DNA of 64,000 nucleotides from Shinella zoogloeoides. GTDB lineage: Bacteria > Pseudomonadota > Alphaproteobacteria > Rhizobiales > Rhizobiaceae. This document shows positions 36,703 through 60,063 of the stretch, piece after piece (position 1 is the first letter of the stretch; every line of letters begins with the position of its first letter). The DNA lies in assembly GCF_003574625.1 (NCBI RefSeq), contig NZ_QNUJ01000011.1, positions 62,001 to 126,000 on the forward strand, written 5' to 3'. The translations under genes were made by a program, and so were the position numbers. The notes under the pieces were generated by a model that saw only the letters and a program-made list of their open reading frames with translations, had not been told where the DNA came from and did no database searches.

Positions 36703-36918
36703 TCAATCCCAGAAATAGGACTTTCCGGCCTCACGCCGGGCTTCGCTGCGGGTGAGCCCGACATCGCGAAGCTGCTCGTCCGTCAGTTCCAGCAGCGCAT
36801 AACGCGTGTGTCGCCTGATACGCCATGCCTGATAGACGCGCCATGCGCGACGAAGGATCACGCGGAACGCGCCGCGCGACTTTAGCTCCGTGCCGGCGTA
36901 AAATGTCTCAATTGCCAT
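36703..36918 (-). CDS. DUF1127 (YjiS-like) small protein
   Basis: 71-residue basic protein with a C-terminal DUF1127 domain (AWRIRRHTRYALLELTDEQLRDVGLTRSEARREAGKSYFW). DUF1127 proteins are small Arg-rich proteins common in alphaproteobacteria; some bind RNA or alter sRNA turnover, phosphate/carbon metabolism or stress responses. ATG at 36918 has AGGAGA 7 nt upstream. Divergent from the MocR-type regulator, with a TGTCAC-N8-GTGACA palindrome between them. Confidence 0.87.
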   Translation of the reverse strand: MAIETFYAGTELKSRGAFRVILRRAWRVYQAWRIRRHTRYALLELTDEQLRDVGLTRSEARREAGKSYFWD

Positions 36919-56809: not shown

Positions 56810-57220
56810 CCGCTCACCGTTCCCTTCGCTCTTCGTATTTCCATTCCTGTGCCTGAGAAACGATATAGGGCCGGCAGGAATTCGCAATCGCAGTGAAAAT
56901 CCGAAAGACCGGCGATCTTTCACCTGAAACGCGCAGTCCGACCTTCACGGTTAACCGGACATAAAGAAATCCATGGCAGATTTAGCAACAGAAAGCCCTT
57001 CGGCTTGCGACCGACGACATGCAGCTGGCGCATATCATCCATGCCCATATTGCACTGCACAAAATCGGGAATCGCAGCTATAGTGCAGACATCGGATCAG
57101 AGATGATCCAGACCGAAAGTCAGGCGCCTTCGAGGCGACGGATGGACGGGGGCGAACTGGTCGAACGCCCGGCATGATGCCTCGGACCCGATACTCCGGA
57201 AACGGAGTTCGACAGGAATT
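56810..57220 (+). other. Non-coding stretch before the first sRNA
   Basis: 410 bases with no convincing gene. It holds promoter P1 (dyad 57019-57033, -10 at 57079-57084), two short hairpins, GGATCA-gaga-TGATCC (57094-57109) and ACTCCG-gaaa-CGGAGT (57193-57208), and a 24-codon open frame (57103-57177) without a clear ribosome site. If P1 is the only promoter, the first sRNA is made as a transcript of about 250 nt and may be processed. Confidence 0.5.
57019..57084 (+). promoter_or_regulatory. P1: LysR-type dyad promoter before sRNA 1
   Basis: Dyad ATGCA-GCTGG-CGCAT (57019-57033), a 45-nt gap, then -10 TATAGT (57079-57084). The dyad contains T-N11-A and is centred about 65 nt upstream of the predicted start (~57091). 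A second element TTGCACTGCACA lies 17 nt after the dyad (57050-57061), where an activator's second contact near -35 would fall; the same 12-mer has the same offset in P4. Confidence 0.6.
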
Positions 57221-57340
57221 CGGAGCGACGCACTCCTCCTCCCAGCGTCCCTCCGATACGATTGGCAACACTCCTCCTCCCAGTTGCCAATCATTATTAT
57301 GACGCCCGCTGGATCTCCTCCCCCAGCGGGCGTTATTTTT
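57221..57340 (+). ncRNA. Anti-Shine-Dalgarno sRNA, alpha-r14/cuckoo family, copy 1
   Basis: Three consecutive hairpins. HP1 57221-57255: CGGAGCGACGC/GCGTCCCTCCG with one C-C mismatch. HP2 57260-57292: perfect GATTGGCAAC/GTTGCCAATC. HP3 57302-57333: perfect ACGCCCGCTGG/CCAGCGGGCGT, followed by a TATTTTT terminator tract. HP1 and HP2 share the identical 13-nt loop ACTCCTCCTCCCA; the HP3 loop is ATCTCCTCCC. Unpaired CUCCUCCC can pair with ribosome-binding sites of mRNAs. This architecture is that of the rhizobial alpha-r14 sRNAs (Sinorhizobium NfeR1). The true 5' end is uncertain, as P1 would start it near 57091. Confidence 0.85.
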
Positions 57341-57442
57341 GCGCCCTGCGCATGGCGAGCGGCCGGAGCCGTGGCATTTTCCAGAAAAATCGCTGGGGCC
57401 AGCCCGCACGTTCGAGGCATCTGCCCAATCCTTGCGCAATAC

Positions 57443-57508
57443 ATGCGTCGCGCGCATGGGTGCCATTCCAACCGGGCCCTACCGCGCCGCGATGGCCGAA
57501 TCTATATG
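57443..57508 (+). promoter_or_regulatory. P2: LysR-type dyad promoter of sRNA 2
   Basis: Dyad ATGCG-TCGCG-CGCAT (57443-57457, perfect inverted repeat), a 45-nt gap, then -10 TATATG (57503-57508). Predicted start ~57515, five nt before the first sRNA hairpin, with the dyad centre at about -65. No good -35 hexamer, as expected for an activator-dependent promoter. Confidence 0.65.
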
Positions 57509-57514
57509 GTCCTC

Positions 57515-57640
57515 ATCGGTCGGGCGACGATCTCCTCCTCCCGACGTCCCCGACAGGATTGGCGGCCTCTCCTCCCAAGCTGCCAATCGAGACCAGCAAC
57601 GCCCGCCGGACCTCCTCCCCCGGCGGGCGTTGCTTTTTGC
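57515..57640 (+). ncRNA. Anti-Shine-Dalgarno sRNA, alpha-r14/cuckoo family, copy 2
   Basis: Three hairpins like copy 1 but diverged. HP1 57520-57553: TCGGGCGACG/CGTCCCCGA with one bulged C. HP2 57557-57588: GATTGGCGGC/GCTGCCAATC with a G-U pair. HP3 57596-57633: perfect 14-bp GCAACGCCCGCCGG/CCGGCGGGCGTTGC, followed by TTTTTGC as terminator. Loops carry CTCCTCCTCCC, CTCCTCCC and CCTCCTCCC. Stem substitutions relative to copy 1 largely keep pairing while the loops keep the motif, which argues for selection on RNA structure. Length about 126 nt from the P2 start, usual for alpha-r14 RNAs. Confidence 0.87.
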
Positions 57641-57730
57641 ACTGCACTCACAGCTCAGCGCATAGCTTTGTTTACCTTTGTGGCGCGAGCCCGGAATTTA
57701 GCCAGAATTTTGCCGAAATTTCCGCTTGAC

Positions 57731-57795
57731 ATGCATGAAGCGCATAGGTGCCGTGCTATTCCAGCGCTGTTCATTTCGGCAATGCAGCGTATATT
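57731..57795 (+). promoter_or_regulatory. P3: LysR-type dyad promoter of the first DUF1127 gene
   Basis: Dyad ATGCA-TGAAG-CGCAT (57731-57745), a 44-nt gap, -10 TATATT (57790-57795). Predicted start ~57802, giving a 66-nt leader. The wider core ACATGC-N5-GCGCAT is shared with P1 and P2. Confidence 0.62.
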
Positions 57796-57867
57796 CCATT
57801 TCATCAGATCGGGGCGGCGCCAAGGACGAGCGGCCGCCCAGCAGGAAGCCCAGAAAGGGGTAAAGAC

Positions 57868-58011
57868 ATGAACCTGGCACGCTCTTTCAACAACTGGCGC
57901 AAGTACCGTCAGACCGTCAACGAACTCGGCCGCATGACGGACCGTGAACTCCGCGACCTCGGCATCGGCCGCAGCGATATCCCGTATATCGCACGCAAGG
58001 CCGCCAACTAA
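57868..58011 (+). CDS. DUF1127 small protein, 47 residues (copy 1)
   Basis: 47-residue, strongly basic DUF1127 protein (RSFNNWRKYRQTVNELGRMTDRELRDLGIGRSDIPYIARKAAN): an Arg-rich N-terminal helix followed by the ELxxMTDRELRDLGIxRxDI core. Members of this short class bind RNA or affect sRNA maturation in some alphaproteobacteria and are activated by the LysR regulator VtlR in Brucella. ATG at 57868 has AAAGGGG 8 nt upstream. Own promoter P3 and own terminator. Confidence 0.95.
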   Translation: MNLARSFNNWRKYRQTVNELGRMTDRELRDLGIGRSDIPYIARKAAN

Positions 58012-58040
58012 GCCGGCCGATCCATCCGGATCCCATTTCG

Positions 58041-58077
58041 AACGCCCTTCGGCTCCCGCCGGAGGGCGTTTTGCTTT
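58041..58077 (+). terminator. Terminator after DUF1127 copy 1
   Basis: 13-bp stem AACGCCCTTCGGC/GCCGGAGGGCGTT with one G-U pair, loop TCCC, then TTGCTTTG. Confidence 0.82.
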
Positions 58078-58234
58078 GCACGTCTTTTTGCGCCGCACAA
58101 TGTCGCTTTTTCTCATTCGCGACAAGAGAAGCGACCCGGCCTCGCGGCCGCAGAAATTGCTATTTGTCTGAAATGGCGCGCTTTTCGCCTCTTCCGCATG
58201 CAAGTCCGGCAAATGCCTCTTCCGTGGCCGTCTT

Positions 58235-58300
58235 ATTGCACAAATGCATAGCAGCTGCATTTTCTTTGCACTGCACATTGACAGGGATGTCGCCTATATA
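58235..58300 (+). promoter_or_regulatory. P4: LysR-type promoter of the second DUF1127 gene
   Basis: The downstream half-site TGCAT (58245-58249) stands 45 nt before -10 TATATA (58295-58300), the P1/P2 geometry; T-N11-A is kept (58236/58248), but the upstream half is ATTGC rather than ATGCR. TTGCACTGCACA (58266-58277) lies 17 nt after the half-site exactly as in P1. An inverted repeat AAATGCA-N7-TGCATTT overlaps (58242-58262), and the -10 sits in a 14-bp palindrome CGCCTATATAGGCG (58291-58304). Confidence 0.52.
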
Positions 58301-58354
58301 GGCGTCACGAACCGGTGAGACAGACCTCCCGGGCCACACTTCGAGGAAGAGACC

Positions 58355-58498
58355 ATGAACCCGATCCGCATTGCAAAGAACTGGATTTCCTACCGCCGCA
58401 CCCTGAACGAACTCGGCAACCTGTCGAACCACACGCTCTCGGACATCGGCCTGACCCGCTACGACATCCGCGACATCGCTTCGCGTTCGTTCCGCTAA
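58355..58498 (+). CDS. DUF1127 small protein, 47 residues (copy 2)
   Basis: 47 residues, too short for many gene callers: MNPIRIAKNWISYRRTLNEL continuing GNLSNHTLSDIGLTRYDIRDIASRSFR. Same length and layout as the copy 340 nt upstream (basic helix, NELG, then DIG(L/I)xRxDI), with roughly 40 percent identity by eye, so an old tandem duplication. GAGGAA lies 6-7 nt upstream of ATG 58355. Own promoter P4 and terminator. Confidence 0.95.
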   Translation: MNPIRIAKNWISYRRTLNELGNLSNHTLSDIGLTRYDIRDIASRSFR

Positions 58499-58653: not shown

Positions 58654-60063
58654 ATGACAAAGACCTCTTCCTTCAGCCCCATCCATGTCATCGGCGGCGG
58701 CCTTGCCGGCTCCGAAGCCGCCTGGCAGATCGCCGAGAGCGGCGTTCCCGTCATCCTGCATGAAATGCGCGGCGTGCGCGGCACGGACGCCCACAAGACG
58801 GACGGCCTTGCCGAGCTCGTCTGCTCCAATTCCTTCCGCTCGGACGATGCGACCAGCAATGCCGTCGGCGTTCTGCATGCGGAGATGCGGCTTGCCGGCT
58901 CGCTGATCATGCGCTCGGCCGATGCCAACCAGGTGCCGGCCGGTGGGGCGCTCGCCGTCGACCGCGAGGGCTTTTCCGCCGCCGTGACGGCCGCGCTCGA
59001 AAGCCACCCGCTGATCACCATCACGCGCGAGGAAGTGACGGGCCTGCCGCCGGAGGAGTGGGACCAGGCGATCATCGCCACAGGCCCCCTCACCGCGCCC
59101 TCGCTCGCCGAGGCCATCCAGGCGCGCACCGGCGCCGATTCGCTCGCCTTCTTCGACGCCATCGCGCCGATCATCCATACGCACAGCATCGACATGGATA
59201 TCTGCTGGTACCAGTCGCGCTACGACAAGGTCGGCCCCGGCGGCACGGGCAAGGATTATATCAACTGCCCGATGGACGAGGCGCAGTACAATGCCTTCAT
59301 CGACGCGCTGATCGCCGGCGATACGACCGGCTTCAAGGAATGGGAAGGCACGCCCTATTTCGACGGCTGCCTGCCGATCGAGGTAATGGCCGAGCGCGGC
59401 CGCGAGACGCTGCGCCACGGTCCGATGAAGCCGATGGGCCTCACCAATGCGCATAATCCGACGGTCAAGCCCTATGCCGTCGTGCAGCTTCGACAGGACA
59501 ATGCGCTCGGCACGCTCTACAACATGGTCGGCTTCCAGACGAAGCTGAAATACGGCGCGCAGGCCGAGATCTTCCGCCTCATTCCGGGCCTGGAAAACGC
59601 GGAATTCGCCCGCCTCGGCGGCCTGCACCGCAACACCTACATCAACTCGCCGACGCTGCTCGATCCTTCGCTGGCGCTGAAGGGCCGGCCGGGCCTGCGC
59701 TTTGCCGGCCAGATCACCGGCTGCGAGGGCTATGTGGAGAGCGCCAGCATCGGTCTTCTGGCCGGCCGCTTCGCCTCCGCCGAGCGCCGCGGCGAAACGC
59801 CGTCGCTGCCGCCGGAAACGACGGCCTTCGGCGCGCTGCTGAACCATATCACCGGCGGCCACATCGTCTCCGACGACGAGCCAGGCAAGCGCTCCTTCCA
59901 GCCGATGAACGTCAATTTCGGCCTGTTCCCGCCGCTGGAGCCGGGAGCGGTGACGAGACCGGAAGGCGTGAAGCGTTTCCGCGGCAAGGACAAGGCGCTC
60001 GCCAAGAAGCAGGCGACGGCGGCCCGGGCGCTGGAAGATTGCGCCCGCTGGCTCGGGCGCTGA
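58654..60063 (+). CDS. trmFO: tRNA (uracil-5-)-methyltransferase TrmFO
   Basis: 469-residue folate- and FAD-dependent enzyme forming m5U54 in the tRNA T-loop. FAD-binding [17 protein letters not shown] near residue 12, [10 protein letters not shown] with the conserved cysteine, [12 protein letters not shown] with the second cysteine, and [19 protein letters not shown] at 58654 begins the homology. The family replaces TrmA in most alphaproteobacteria. Confidence 0.97.

Follow-up and report, generated by a model that had tools for sequence, protein, structure and literature searches.

Two alpha-r14 RNAs and two DUF1127 genes of Shinella zoogloeoides share a predicted LsrB-type promoter geometry

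Introduction

In Shinella zoogloeoides the trmFO gene is preceded by four short units on the + strand, two small RNAs of the alpha-r14 family (RNA 1 and RNA 2) followed by two genes for DUF1127 proteins (DUF1127-a and DUF1127-b), and the question that this locus raises is what controls them. The cluster lies in a stretch of 64,000 nucleotides (nt) of contig NZ_QNUJ01000011.1 (positions 62,001 to 126,000), here called the window. Very probably all four units belong to LsrB (VtlR), which is predicted from sequence to bind and activate them in this species through shared promoters composed of a dyad, 45 nt and a TATA-like word.

The mechanism that we propose has each unit made as a separate transcript from a promoter of the sigma-70 type that lacks a good -35 element, switched on by the LysR-type redox regulator LsrB. 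LsrB would bind a T-N11-A dyad, TGCA-N6-GCAT (N5 at DUF1127-b), centred near -65, with GCAT-N3-TG-N3-T as an overlapping half site at two of the four sites, and would bring in RNA polymerase at a set spacing, 44-45 nt from the end of the dyad to the -10 element. The CUCCUCC loops of the alpha-r14 RNAs could mask the Shine-Dalgarno sequences of many mRNAs, and the 47-amino-acid (aa) DUF1127 proteins, made simultaneously, would probably tune the same response, either by binding RNA, in the manner of CcaF1, or by acting on protein partners such as PhoR. An initial annotation of this DNA suggested that DUF1127 proteins might bind these RNAs or process them, a role on which the literature is divided: RNA binding is described for CcaF1 of Rhodobacter (PMC10253847, PMC8625941), Agrobacterium DUF1127 proteins are reported to act on the kinase PhoR (PMC12501420), and for Salmonella YjiS there is no evidence of RNA binding according to PMC12501420.

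Both halves of this picture are already known, as is the neighbourhood of DUF1127 genes and cuckoo RNAs. In Sinorhizobium meliloti LsrB binds TGCA-N6-GCAT of the nfeR1 promoter at -72 to -57 (pull-down and electrophoretic mobility shift assay), point mutations or deletion of lsrB abolish nfeR1 transcription, NtrC represses it from a TGC-N11-GCA word farther upstream, and promoter conservation among NfeR1 homologues of several genera has been published (PMC10746234). In the same species abcR1 needs LsrB and transcription of abcR2 needs RpoH1 (PMC8844928). Agrobacterium VtlR binds the promoters of abcR1, atu1667 and vrsA with the box GCAT-N3-TG-N3-T, and the VtlR-activated atu1667 is described as orthologous to two Brucella genes (PMC7486931). 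In Brucella melitensis VtlR activates three DUF1127 genes and abcR2; a fourth DUF1127 gene of this species, without the motif, rises in the vtlR mutant (PMC12595884). What the present analysis would add, judging from sequence, is that one 45-nt geometry serves the whole RNA/DUF1127 module while the layout of the module varies: DUF1127 gene then RNA elsewhere, separate units here, and at a second locus, prmA, a range from DUF1127-like gene plus RNA to RNA alone. A literature search found no paper shown to join NfeR1 and DUF1127, most subscription papers being outside its scope.

Four promoters of one geometry upstream of trmFO

The initial annotation had described three dyads lying 45, 45 and 44 nt before TATA-like words, and both the coordinates and the distances were confirmed (Table 1). 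The T-N11-A dyad centred near -65 is exact at two sites, carries one change (TGCG) at unit 2 and takes an N5 form at DUF1127-b. This fourth site had been called half-conserved; its distance of 45 nt to TATATA stands, but the description does not, since the N5 form recurs. A TGCR-N5-GCAT dyad precedes the last DUF1127 gene in 22 of 25 compared loci (the window with Rhizobium, Sinorhizobium, Agrobacterium and near relatives) and is missing from L043, L071 and L072. The flanks of the DUF1127-b site are well conserved, and N5 spacers are also found in the boxes before DUF1127 and alpha-r14 at two further loci (L119, L126).

The boxes of unit 2 and DUF1127-a overlap GCATGGGTGCCAT and GCATAGGTGCCGT, respectively, both of which fit the published VtlR box GCAT-N3-TG-N3-T. 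The promoters fall into two subtypes, one with TTGCACTGCACA between box and -10 (RNA 1 and DUF1127-b) and one without it (RNA 2 and DUF1127-a). The identities proposed for the four units hold: both RNAs are anti-Shine-Dalgarno RNAs, alpha-r14 by Rfam and with CUCCUCC loops, and both DUF1127 proteins exceed the Pfam cut-off.

Table 1. Features of the cluster upstream of trmFO (window coordinates; cut-offs are 23.3 bits for PF06568 and a gathering score of 58.8 bits for RF02344; R1 is the box model described below)
Feature	Coordinates	Strand	Remarks
LsrB-type box, alpha-r14 unit 1 (TGCA-N6-GCAT; ATGCAGCTGGCGCAT)	57019-57033 (exact word 57020-57033)	+	45 nt to TATAGT 57079-57084; R1 E 2.6e-5
Predicted 5' leader of RNA 1	57091-57214	+	From start predicted in the initial annotation to Rfam start; variable length; fold z -1.51, weakly structured
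alpha-r14 RNA 1	57215-57338	+	RF02344, 124.2 bits; fold z -10.4; three hairpins with CUCCUCC loops, the last being the terminator
LsrB-type box, alpha-r14 unit 2 (TGCG-N6-GCAT; ATGCGTCGCGCGCAT)	57443-57457 (word 57444-57457)	+	45 nt to TATATG 57503-57508; R1 E 0.17
alpha-r14 RNA 2	57515-57635	+	RF02344, 85.3 bits; fold z -6.49
LsrB-type box, DUF1127-a (TGCA-N6-GCAT; ATGCATGAAGCGCAT)	57731-57745 (word 57732-57745)	+	44 nt to TATATT 57790-57795; R1 E 1.3e-7
DUF1127-a, 47 aa, arginine-rich	57868-58011	+	PF06568, 64.0 bits
Variant LsrB-type box, DUF1127-b (TGCA-N5-GCAT)	58237-58249	+	45 nt to TATATA 58295-58300; not among R1 matches
DUF1127-b, 47 aa, arginine-rich	58355-58498	+	PF06568, 54.3 bits
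trmFO, downstream neighbour outside the regulon; used to fetch related loci	58654-60063	+	NF003739 and TIGR00137 above cut-off

The geometry against chance

Apart from the three dyads the 64-kb window has no exact match on the + strand; the second dyad matches the - strand as well. With one mismatch allowed the window holds 12 matches against 17.8 expected, which is not above chance, and the dyad alone therefore proves nothing. Its combination with a TATA-like word is another matter. TGCR-N6-GCAT-N40-48-TATA occurs six times in the 5,375,062-base genome, three of these inside 775 bases here, and the reversed control gives two matches; of the other three, the one at C22:68644 lies before a prmA-adjacent RNA whose loops carry CTCCTCC. 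The remaining two (L014, L015) were without a match in the Rfam scan and were taken as chance. Across 61 genomes of the family the form with 44-45 nt has 87 matches, compared with 26 for the reversed control, and it is present in 35 genomes. Given how rare the pattern with TATA is and how sharply the spacing peaks at 45 nt (see below), chance is rejected as an explanation of the cluster.

The initial annotation had staked its proposal on the dyad being conserved at orthologous loci, and there it was found. We compared 81 stretches, the window and the 80 best trmFO loci among 591 relatives, from named Hyphomicrobiales genomes, each reaching at most 5 kb upstream of trmFO and less in five loci; DUF1127 genes were mapped with a profile of our own, made from four of the proteins that this genome encodes, together with CTCCTCC clusters and dyads. 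Among 107 DUF1127 genes, TGCR-N6-GCAT stands 90-260 nt upstream of 51 and the N5 form of 26 more, with neither at the remaining 30. Reversed patterns gave no hit, and spacers of 3, 4, 7 and 8 nt gave 0, 2, 1 and 12. Permuted pairs of 4-mers (575 in number) averaged 0.36, with top counts of 21, 15, 15 and 14 against 39 for TGCA-N6-GCAT, and the highest-scoring pairs (GCAT/CATG and similar) are words that overlap the same box. Before the 72 CTCCTCC clusters the N6 dyad was found 60-260 nt upstream in 20 cases and the N5 form in two. A TATA-like word follows the dyad at 45 nt in 71 of 110 instances and at 44 nt in 14, every other distance accounting for ten at most. The sequence from dyad to -10 differs widely among the loci, and the geometry is conserved across many genera.

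The layout of the loci varies. In the type shared by Rhizobium, Sinorhizobium and Shinella the RNAs lie upstream of the DUF1127 genes, many with a box of their own. The loci of Mesorhizobium, Phyllobacterium, Aurantimonas, Oricola, Roseibium and Brucella have CTCCTCC clusters behind the DUF1127 gene, and here the box mostly precedes that gene (L053, L073 and L086 have no strict dyad). Sorted by our own rules, 21 RNA clusters have their own box (L057 doubtfully), 46 follow either a DUF1127 gene or a further cluster, and five show neither arrangement.

An independent box model and the regulator gene

A matrix scan, proposed as a check in the initial annotation, gave matches before alpha-r14 RNAs, DUF1127 genes and abcR-type RNAs here, and before DUF1127 genes or alpha-r14 RNAs in held-out genomes. 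The model, R1, is a sequence-only model built from 27 aligned boxes, all from other genomes; in this genome 150 of 614 candidates were scored, with 12 matches at E <= 10. The boxes of DUF1127-a and RNA 1 took the first two ranks. They are followed by C6:39888 (L106; E 5.2e-4), before a 50-aa arginine-rich protein just over the DUF3563 cut-off (27.2 against 26.9 bits), by C7:95597 (L107; E 0.006), upstream of a gene for a DUF1127-like protein of 54 aa that has no Pfam match, and by C1:44150 (E 0.008), before a further DUF1127 gene, DUF1127-c. Ranks 6-8 are three alpha-r15 (abcR-type) RNAs with E 0.04-0.05. A match at C3:47255 (E 0.072) lacks the left half of the box, precedes what by eye resembles an SMR-type transporter and is probably due to chance; the two weakest matches are L114 and L115.

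The C7:95597 protein and its kin (L134, L142, L179) are 52-59 aa long, and their end, LKTLGINPADF, resembles that of DUF1127; they are possibly a diverged DUF1127 branch. C1:44150-44776 (L108) is a second copy of the module, with the boxed DUF1127-c, a terminator-like hairpin and then a third alpha-r14 RNA.

In total the genome has three alpha-r14, six DUF1127 and four alpha-r15 matches, with boxes before all three, four and three of them, respectively. The third alpha-r14 RNA (C1:44651-44776) has a half box, GCATAGCTGCATTGC, 44 nt before TATAGT, and DUF1127-d (C1:248367) has TGCAAAAGCCGCAT 45 nt before TATCTA, both read by eye. In the three boxed alpha-r15 copies, one of them directly behind lsrB, the box word begins 71 nt upstream of the Rfam start, with 45 nt to a -10-like word by eye; the boxless copy sits, like abcR2, behind the copy that follows lsrB. 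For the DUF1127 gene at C1:104335 the 500 nt that precede the domain match contain neither an N5 nor an N6 dyad. A further DUF1127 gene lies within the window at 36736-36843 (-), and the 500 nt upstream of its domain match likewise hold no N5 or N6 LsrB-type dyad.

With the prmA RNA included, 13 candidate boxes are counted in the genome, and the 'four-unit regulon' of the initial annotation is for this reason too narrow. Its single LsrB/VtlR-like activator fared better, being well supported by sequence (motif, gene order at lsrB and conservation), although not its extent of four units. Since the box also precedes three abcR-type RNAs and several small-protein genes, the predicted direct LsrB targets here would be mostly anti-Shine-Dalgarno RNAs and micro-proteins.

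R1 was also applied to 22 held-out genomes, none of which was used for its training, although some are near relatives of training genomes. Nineteen of them had a match at E <= 0.05, with 85 matches in total. Thirty loci from these matches (some pairs forming one locus) were inspected: 26 precede a DUF1127 gene by our own profile or an alpha-r14 RNA by Rfam, three a DUF1127-like small open reading frame (ORF) (L134 and L142 by eye, L143 at 15.6 bits), and one box-like word (L133) neither DUF1127 nor alpha-r14.

The lsrB gene, named from gene order and LysR domains, lies at G000:C24:272647-273555 (-) and encodes a 302-aa LysR protein. A thioredoxin reductase gene is found upstream and two alpha-r15 RNAs downstream, giving the order trxB-lsrB-abcR1-abcR2; the order trxB-lsrB-abcR is described in Agrobacterium (PMC7486931). 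A close LsrB homologue (E <= 1e-60, 50-98% identity) is encoded in 42 of 43 genomes, the orthology of distant ones being assumed.

The alpha-r14 RNAs and their 5' ends

Both RNAs fold into three hairpins that expose CUCCUCC words (CCUCCUCCC-type) in their loops, and each ends with a strong hairpin followed by a T run. The transcription starts predicted in the initial annotation agree with the RNAs in one case: RNA 2 begins at 57515 by Rfam as well, whereas the Rfam start of RNA 1 comes 124 nt after the predicted 57091, and RNA 1 therefore has a leader or a processed 5' end. In eight aligned loci the dyad of unit 1 and TATTGCACTGCACAA before the -10 are conserved and the dyad-TATA spacing is constant, while the leader is poorly conserved and differs greatly in length among relatives. 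Either 57091-57214 is a processed leader or a second start has been missed. A processed leader is tentatively preferred over a second promoter nearer to RNA 1, for which a word GATACT near 57190 would be a candidate, since the aligned relatives do not conserve the leader.

RNA 2 is probably the counterpart of nfeR1, to judge from the order, the spacing and the NtrC word in Sinorhizobium loci. In three Sinorhizobium/Ensifer loci (L027, L029, L042) TGC-N11-GCA stands 43-44 nt upstream of the dyad. In the window the word is not at the NfeR1 position (-116 to -101); the sole TGC-N11-GCA near unit 2 (57422-57438) lies 22 nt before the dyad, off the Sinorhizobium position, and the 70 nt inspected upstream of the unit 2 dyad in the close relative L024 contain none. 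Control of unit 2 by NtrC after the S. meliloti pattern is not supported.

Competing explanations

Several observations weigh against control of all four units by LsrB. Only the sites of RNA 2 and DUF1127-a fit the published VtlR box; those of RNA 1 and DUF1127-b do not. RNA 2 scores poorly with R1, and neither DUF1127-b nor DUF1127-d is among the 12 R1 matches at E <= 10, for which 150 of 614 candidates were scored. The window TrmFO is 95% identical to that of Shinella yambaruensis, and in this closest relative (L024) DUF1127-a has no strict dyad, the site being TGCT-N6-GCAT (L123). A strict dyad is likewise missing from one Brucella locus (L053), and the 30 boxless DUF1127 genes near trmFO have to be counted here, some of them second behind a boxed gene and some from distant genera. 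The counts at trmFO are not independent, because the 81 stretches share ancestry. Another VtlR-dependent small RNA of Agrobacterium is reported to be without the box (PMC7486931). An LsrB homologue is also present in genomes whose trmFO locus showed no box (L076, L096, L097), and the presence of lsrB does not, for that reason, predict the box.

This last point, together with the fact that T-N11-A is generic for LysR regulators (PMC10746234), would suit another LysR-type regulator that binds sites with a similar dyad in place of LsrB. We consider this very unlikely, since the word TGCA-N6-GCAT and its place equal those of the NfeR1 site that needs LsrB (PMC10746234), a like word begins 71 nt upstream of the Rfam start of the three abcR-type RNAs, and in two genera LsrB/VtlR is needed for abcR1 (PMC8844928, PMC7486931). 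It is also conceivable, if unlikely, that the boxes descend from an older promoter cassette copied with the genes, and that only RNA 2 and DUF1127-a are still under LsrB, the sites of DUF1127-b and RNA 1 being relics or those of another factor. The two promoter subtypes, the misfit of precisely these two sites to the VtlR box and the 5-nt spacer of DUF1127-b speak for such a history; unlike a relic, however, the N5 site persists in most of the compared loci with well-conserved flanks, and N5 spacers recur before DUF1127 and alpha-r14 elsewhere. One longer transcript covering the units, with incidental inner dyads, could draw on the head-to-tail arrangement and on the 124-nt predicted leader of RNA 1, yet a strong hairpin and T run closes each RNA and the dyad-TATA spacing stays constant while the leader varies, which leaves it very unlikely. 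Four separately promoted units under LsrB remain the preferred reading.

Relation to known systems

With the NfeR1/LsrB system of S. meliloti (PMC10746234) the cluster shares an alpha-r14 RNA with three anti-Shine-Dalgarno loops, TGCA-N6-GCAT at about -72 to -57 and a sigma-70 -10 element; it differs in the place of the NtrC word and in having two such RNAs and two DUF1127 genes side by side. With the VtlR regulon of Brucella and Agrobacterium (PMC12595884, PMC7486931) it shares the LysR-type activation, here predicted, of an AbcR RNA and small DUF1127-type genes and, at two of the four sites, the box GCAT-N3-TG-N3-T. In the available sections of these two papers no alpha-r14 target is named, whereas here the boxes of alpha-r14 and DUF1127 lie in one cluster, and here the dyad extends upstream of the published box. 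AbcR1/AbcR2 (alpha-r15; PMC8844928) are likewise LsrB-dependent anti-Shine-Dalgarno RNAs, with the same box before three of the four copies in this genome, but of a different RNA family.

A short DUF1127 gene beside CcsR-like RNAs is the definition of a CIN1 locus, as relayed second-hand in PMC10253847, and the cluster has this composition. In the ccaF1-CcsR1-4 locus of Rhodobacter sphaeroides (PMC10253847, PMC8625941) the DUF1127 gene and the CcsR/cuckoo RNAs form one transcript from an RpoHI/RpoHII promoter and RNase E cuts the RNAs from the 3' untranslated region; in contrast to a single promoter of this type, the cluster here has a separate LsrB-type box for each unit and terminators behind the RNAs. 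The DUF1127-then-RNA loci of Mesorhizobium, Phyllobacterium and others resemble the ccaF1-CcsR1-4 arrangement.

The predicted regulon would join two lines that the cited papers treat separately, LsrB and NfeR1 in symbionts and VtlR and DUF1127 in Brucella and Agrobacterium. If it is real, a redox signal read by LsrB would determine at once the supply of RNAs able to mask ribosome-binding sites and that of tiny proteins whose targets may be RNA or sensor kinases. Many related bacteria likewise pair one promoter type with anti-Shine-Dalgarno RNAs and arginine-rich micro-proteins, and the conserved box is a practical finder of both: in this genome it pointed to the DUF3563 gene, the DUF1127-like gene without a Pfam match and an anti-Shine-Dalgarno RNA without an Rfam match, that of the prmA locus.

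The prmA locus and a possible origin of free-standing RNAs

A broader reading, to which we give somewhat less than even credence, takes anti-Shine-Dalgarno RNAs and arginine-rich micro-proteins as the core of the direct LsrB regulon across Hyphomicrobiales, interchangeable under a single rigid promoter (dyad, 45 nt, -10). The separately promoted units of the Rhizobiaceae may have arisen when an ancestral DUF1127 mRNA, whose 3' region held anti-Shine-Dalgarno RNAs, was split up, and at prmA the coding part may have decayed in some genera, leaving a free-standing anti-Shine-Dalgarno RNA such as the one at G000:C22:68644. There (L016:1501-1860), adjoining the reverse-strand prmA gene, an LsrB-type box, an RNA with CTCCTCCTC loops and a terminator-like hairpin follow each other; this RNA has no Rfam match at E <= 0.05. 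A term search of the literature showed no RNA at prmA among the titles listed.

An N6 dyad lies beside prmA in 22 of 30 genomes tested, and what stands behind it, read by eye, takes three forms. Eleven loci (Shinella, Mycoplana, Sinorhizobium, Ensifer and others) have CTCCTCC loops and no DUF1127-like ORF, nine have an ORF of 57-64 aa in the place of DUF1127 with at least one CTCCTCC behind it, and two have the ORF alone. Four of the nine ORFs match our own profile (L157, L159, L161, L169), the match of L161 being circular because the profile contained that protein; five of Rhizobium type (L148-L151, L155) do not, and are DUF1127-like by length, place and end alone. In Agrobacterium (L143, L161) the box precedes a DUF1127-like gene instead of an RNA. 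Two loci (L165, L170) combine a profile match and one CTCCTCC with the absence of a strict dyad, and none of these features was seen at prmA in three outgroup genomes (L173-L175) or in L154, L168 and L172. We infer that the ORF was lost rather than gained, and the prmA series would then be a natural case of a 3'-region RNA that may become an independent small RNA. In an Rfam scan of 12 RNA-type prmA loci only L171 rose above the alpha-r14 cut-off, with L158 below it at 33.2 bits. The RNA-only form aligns over ten sequences, that of this genome included.

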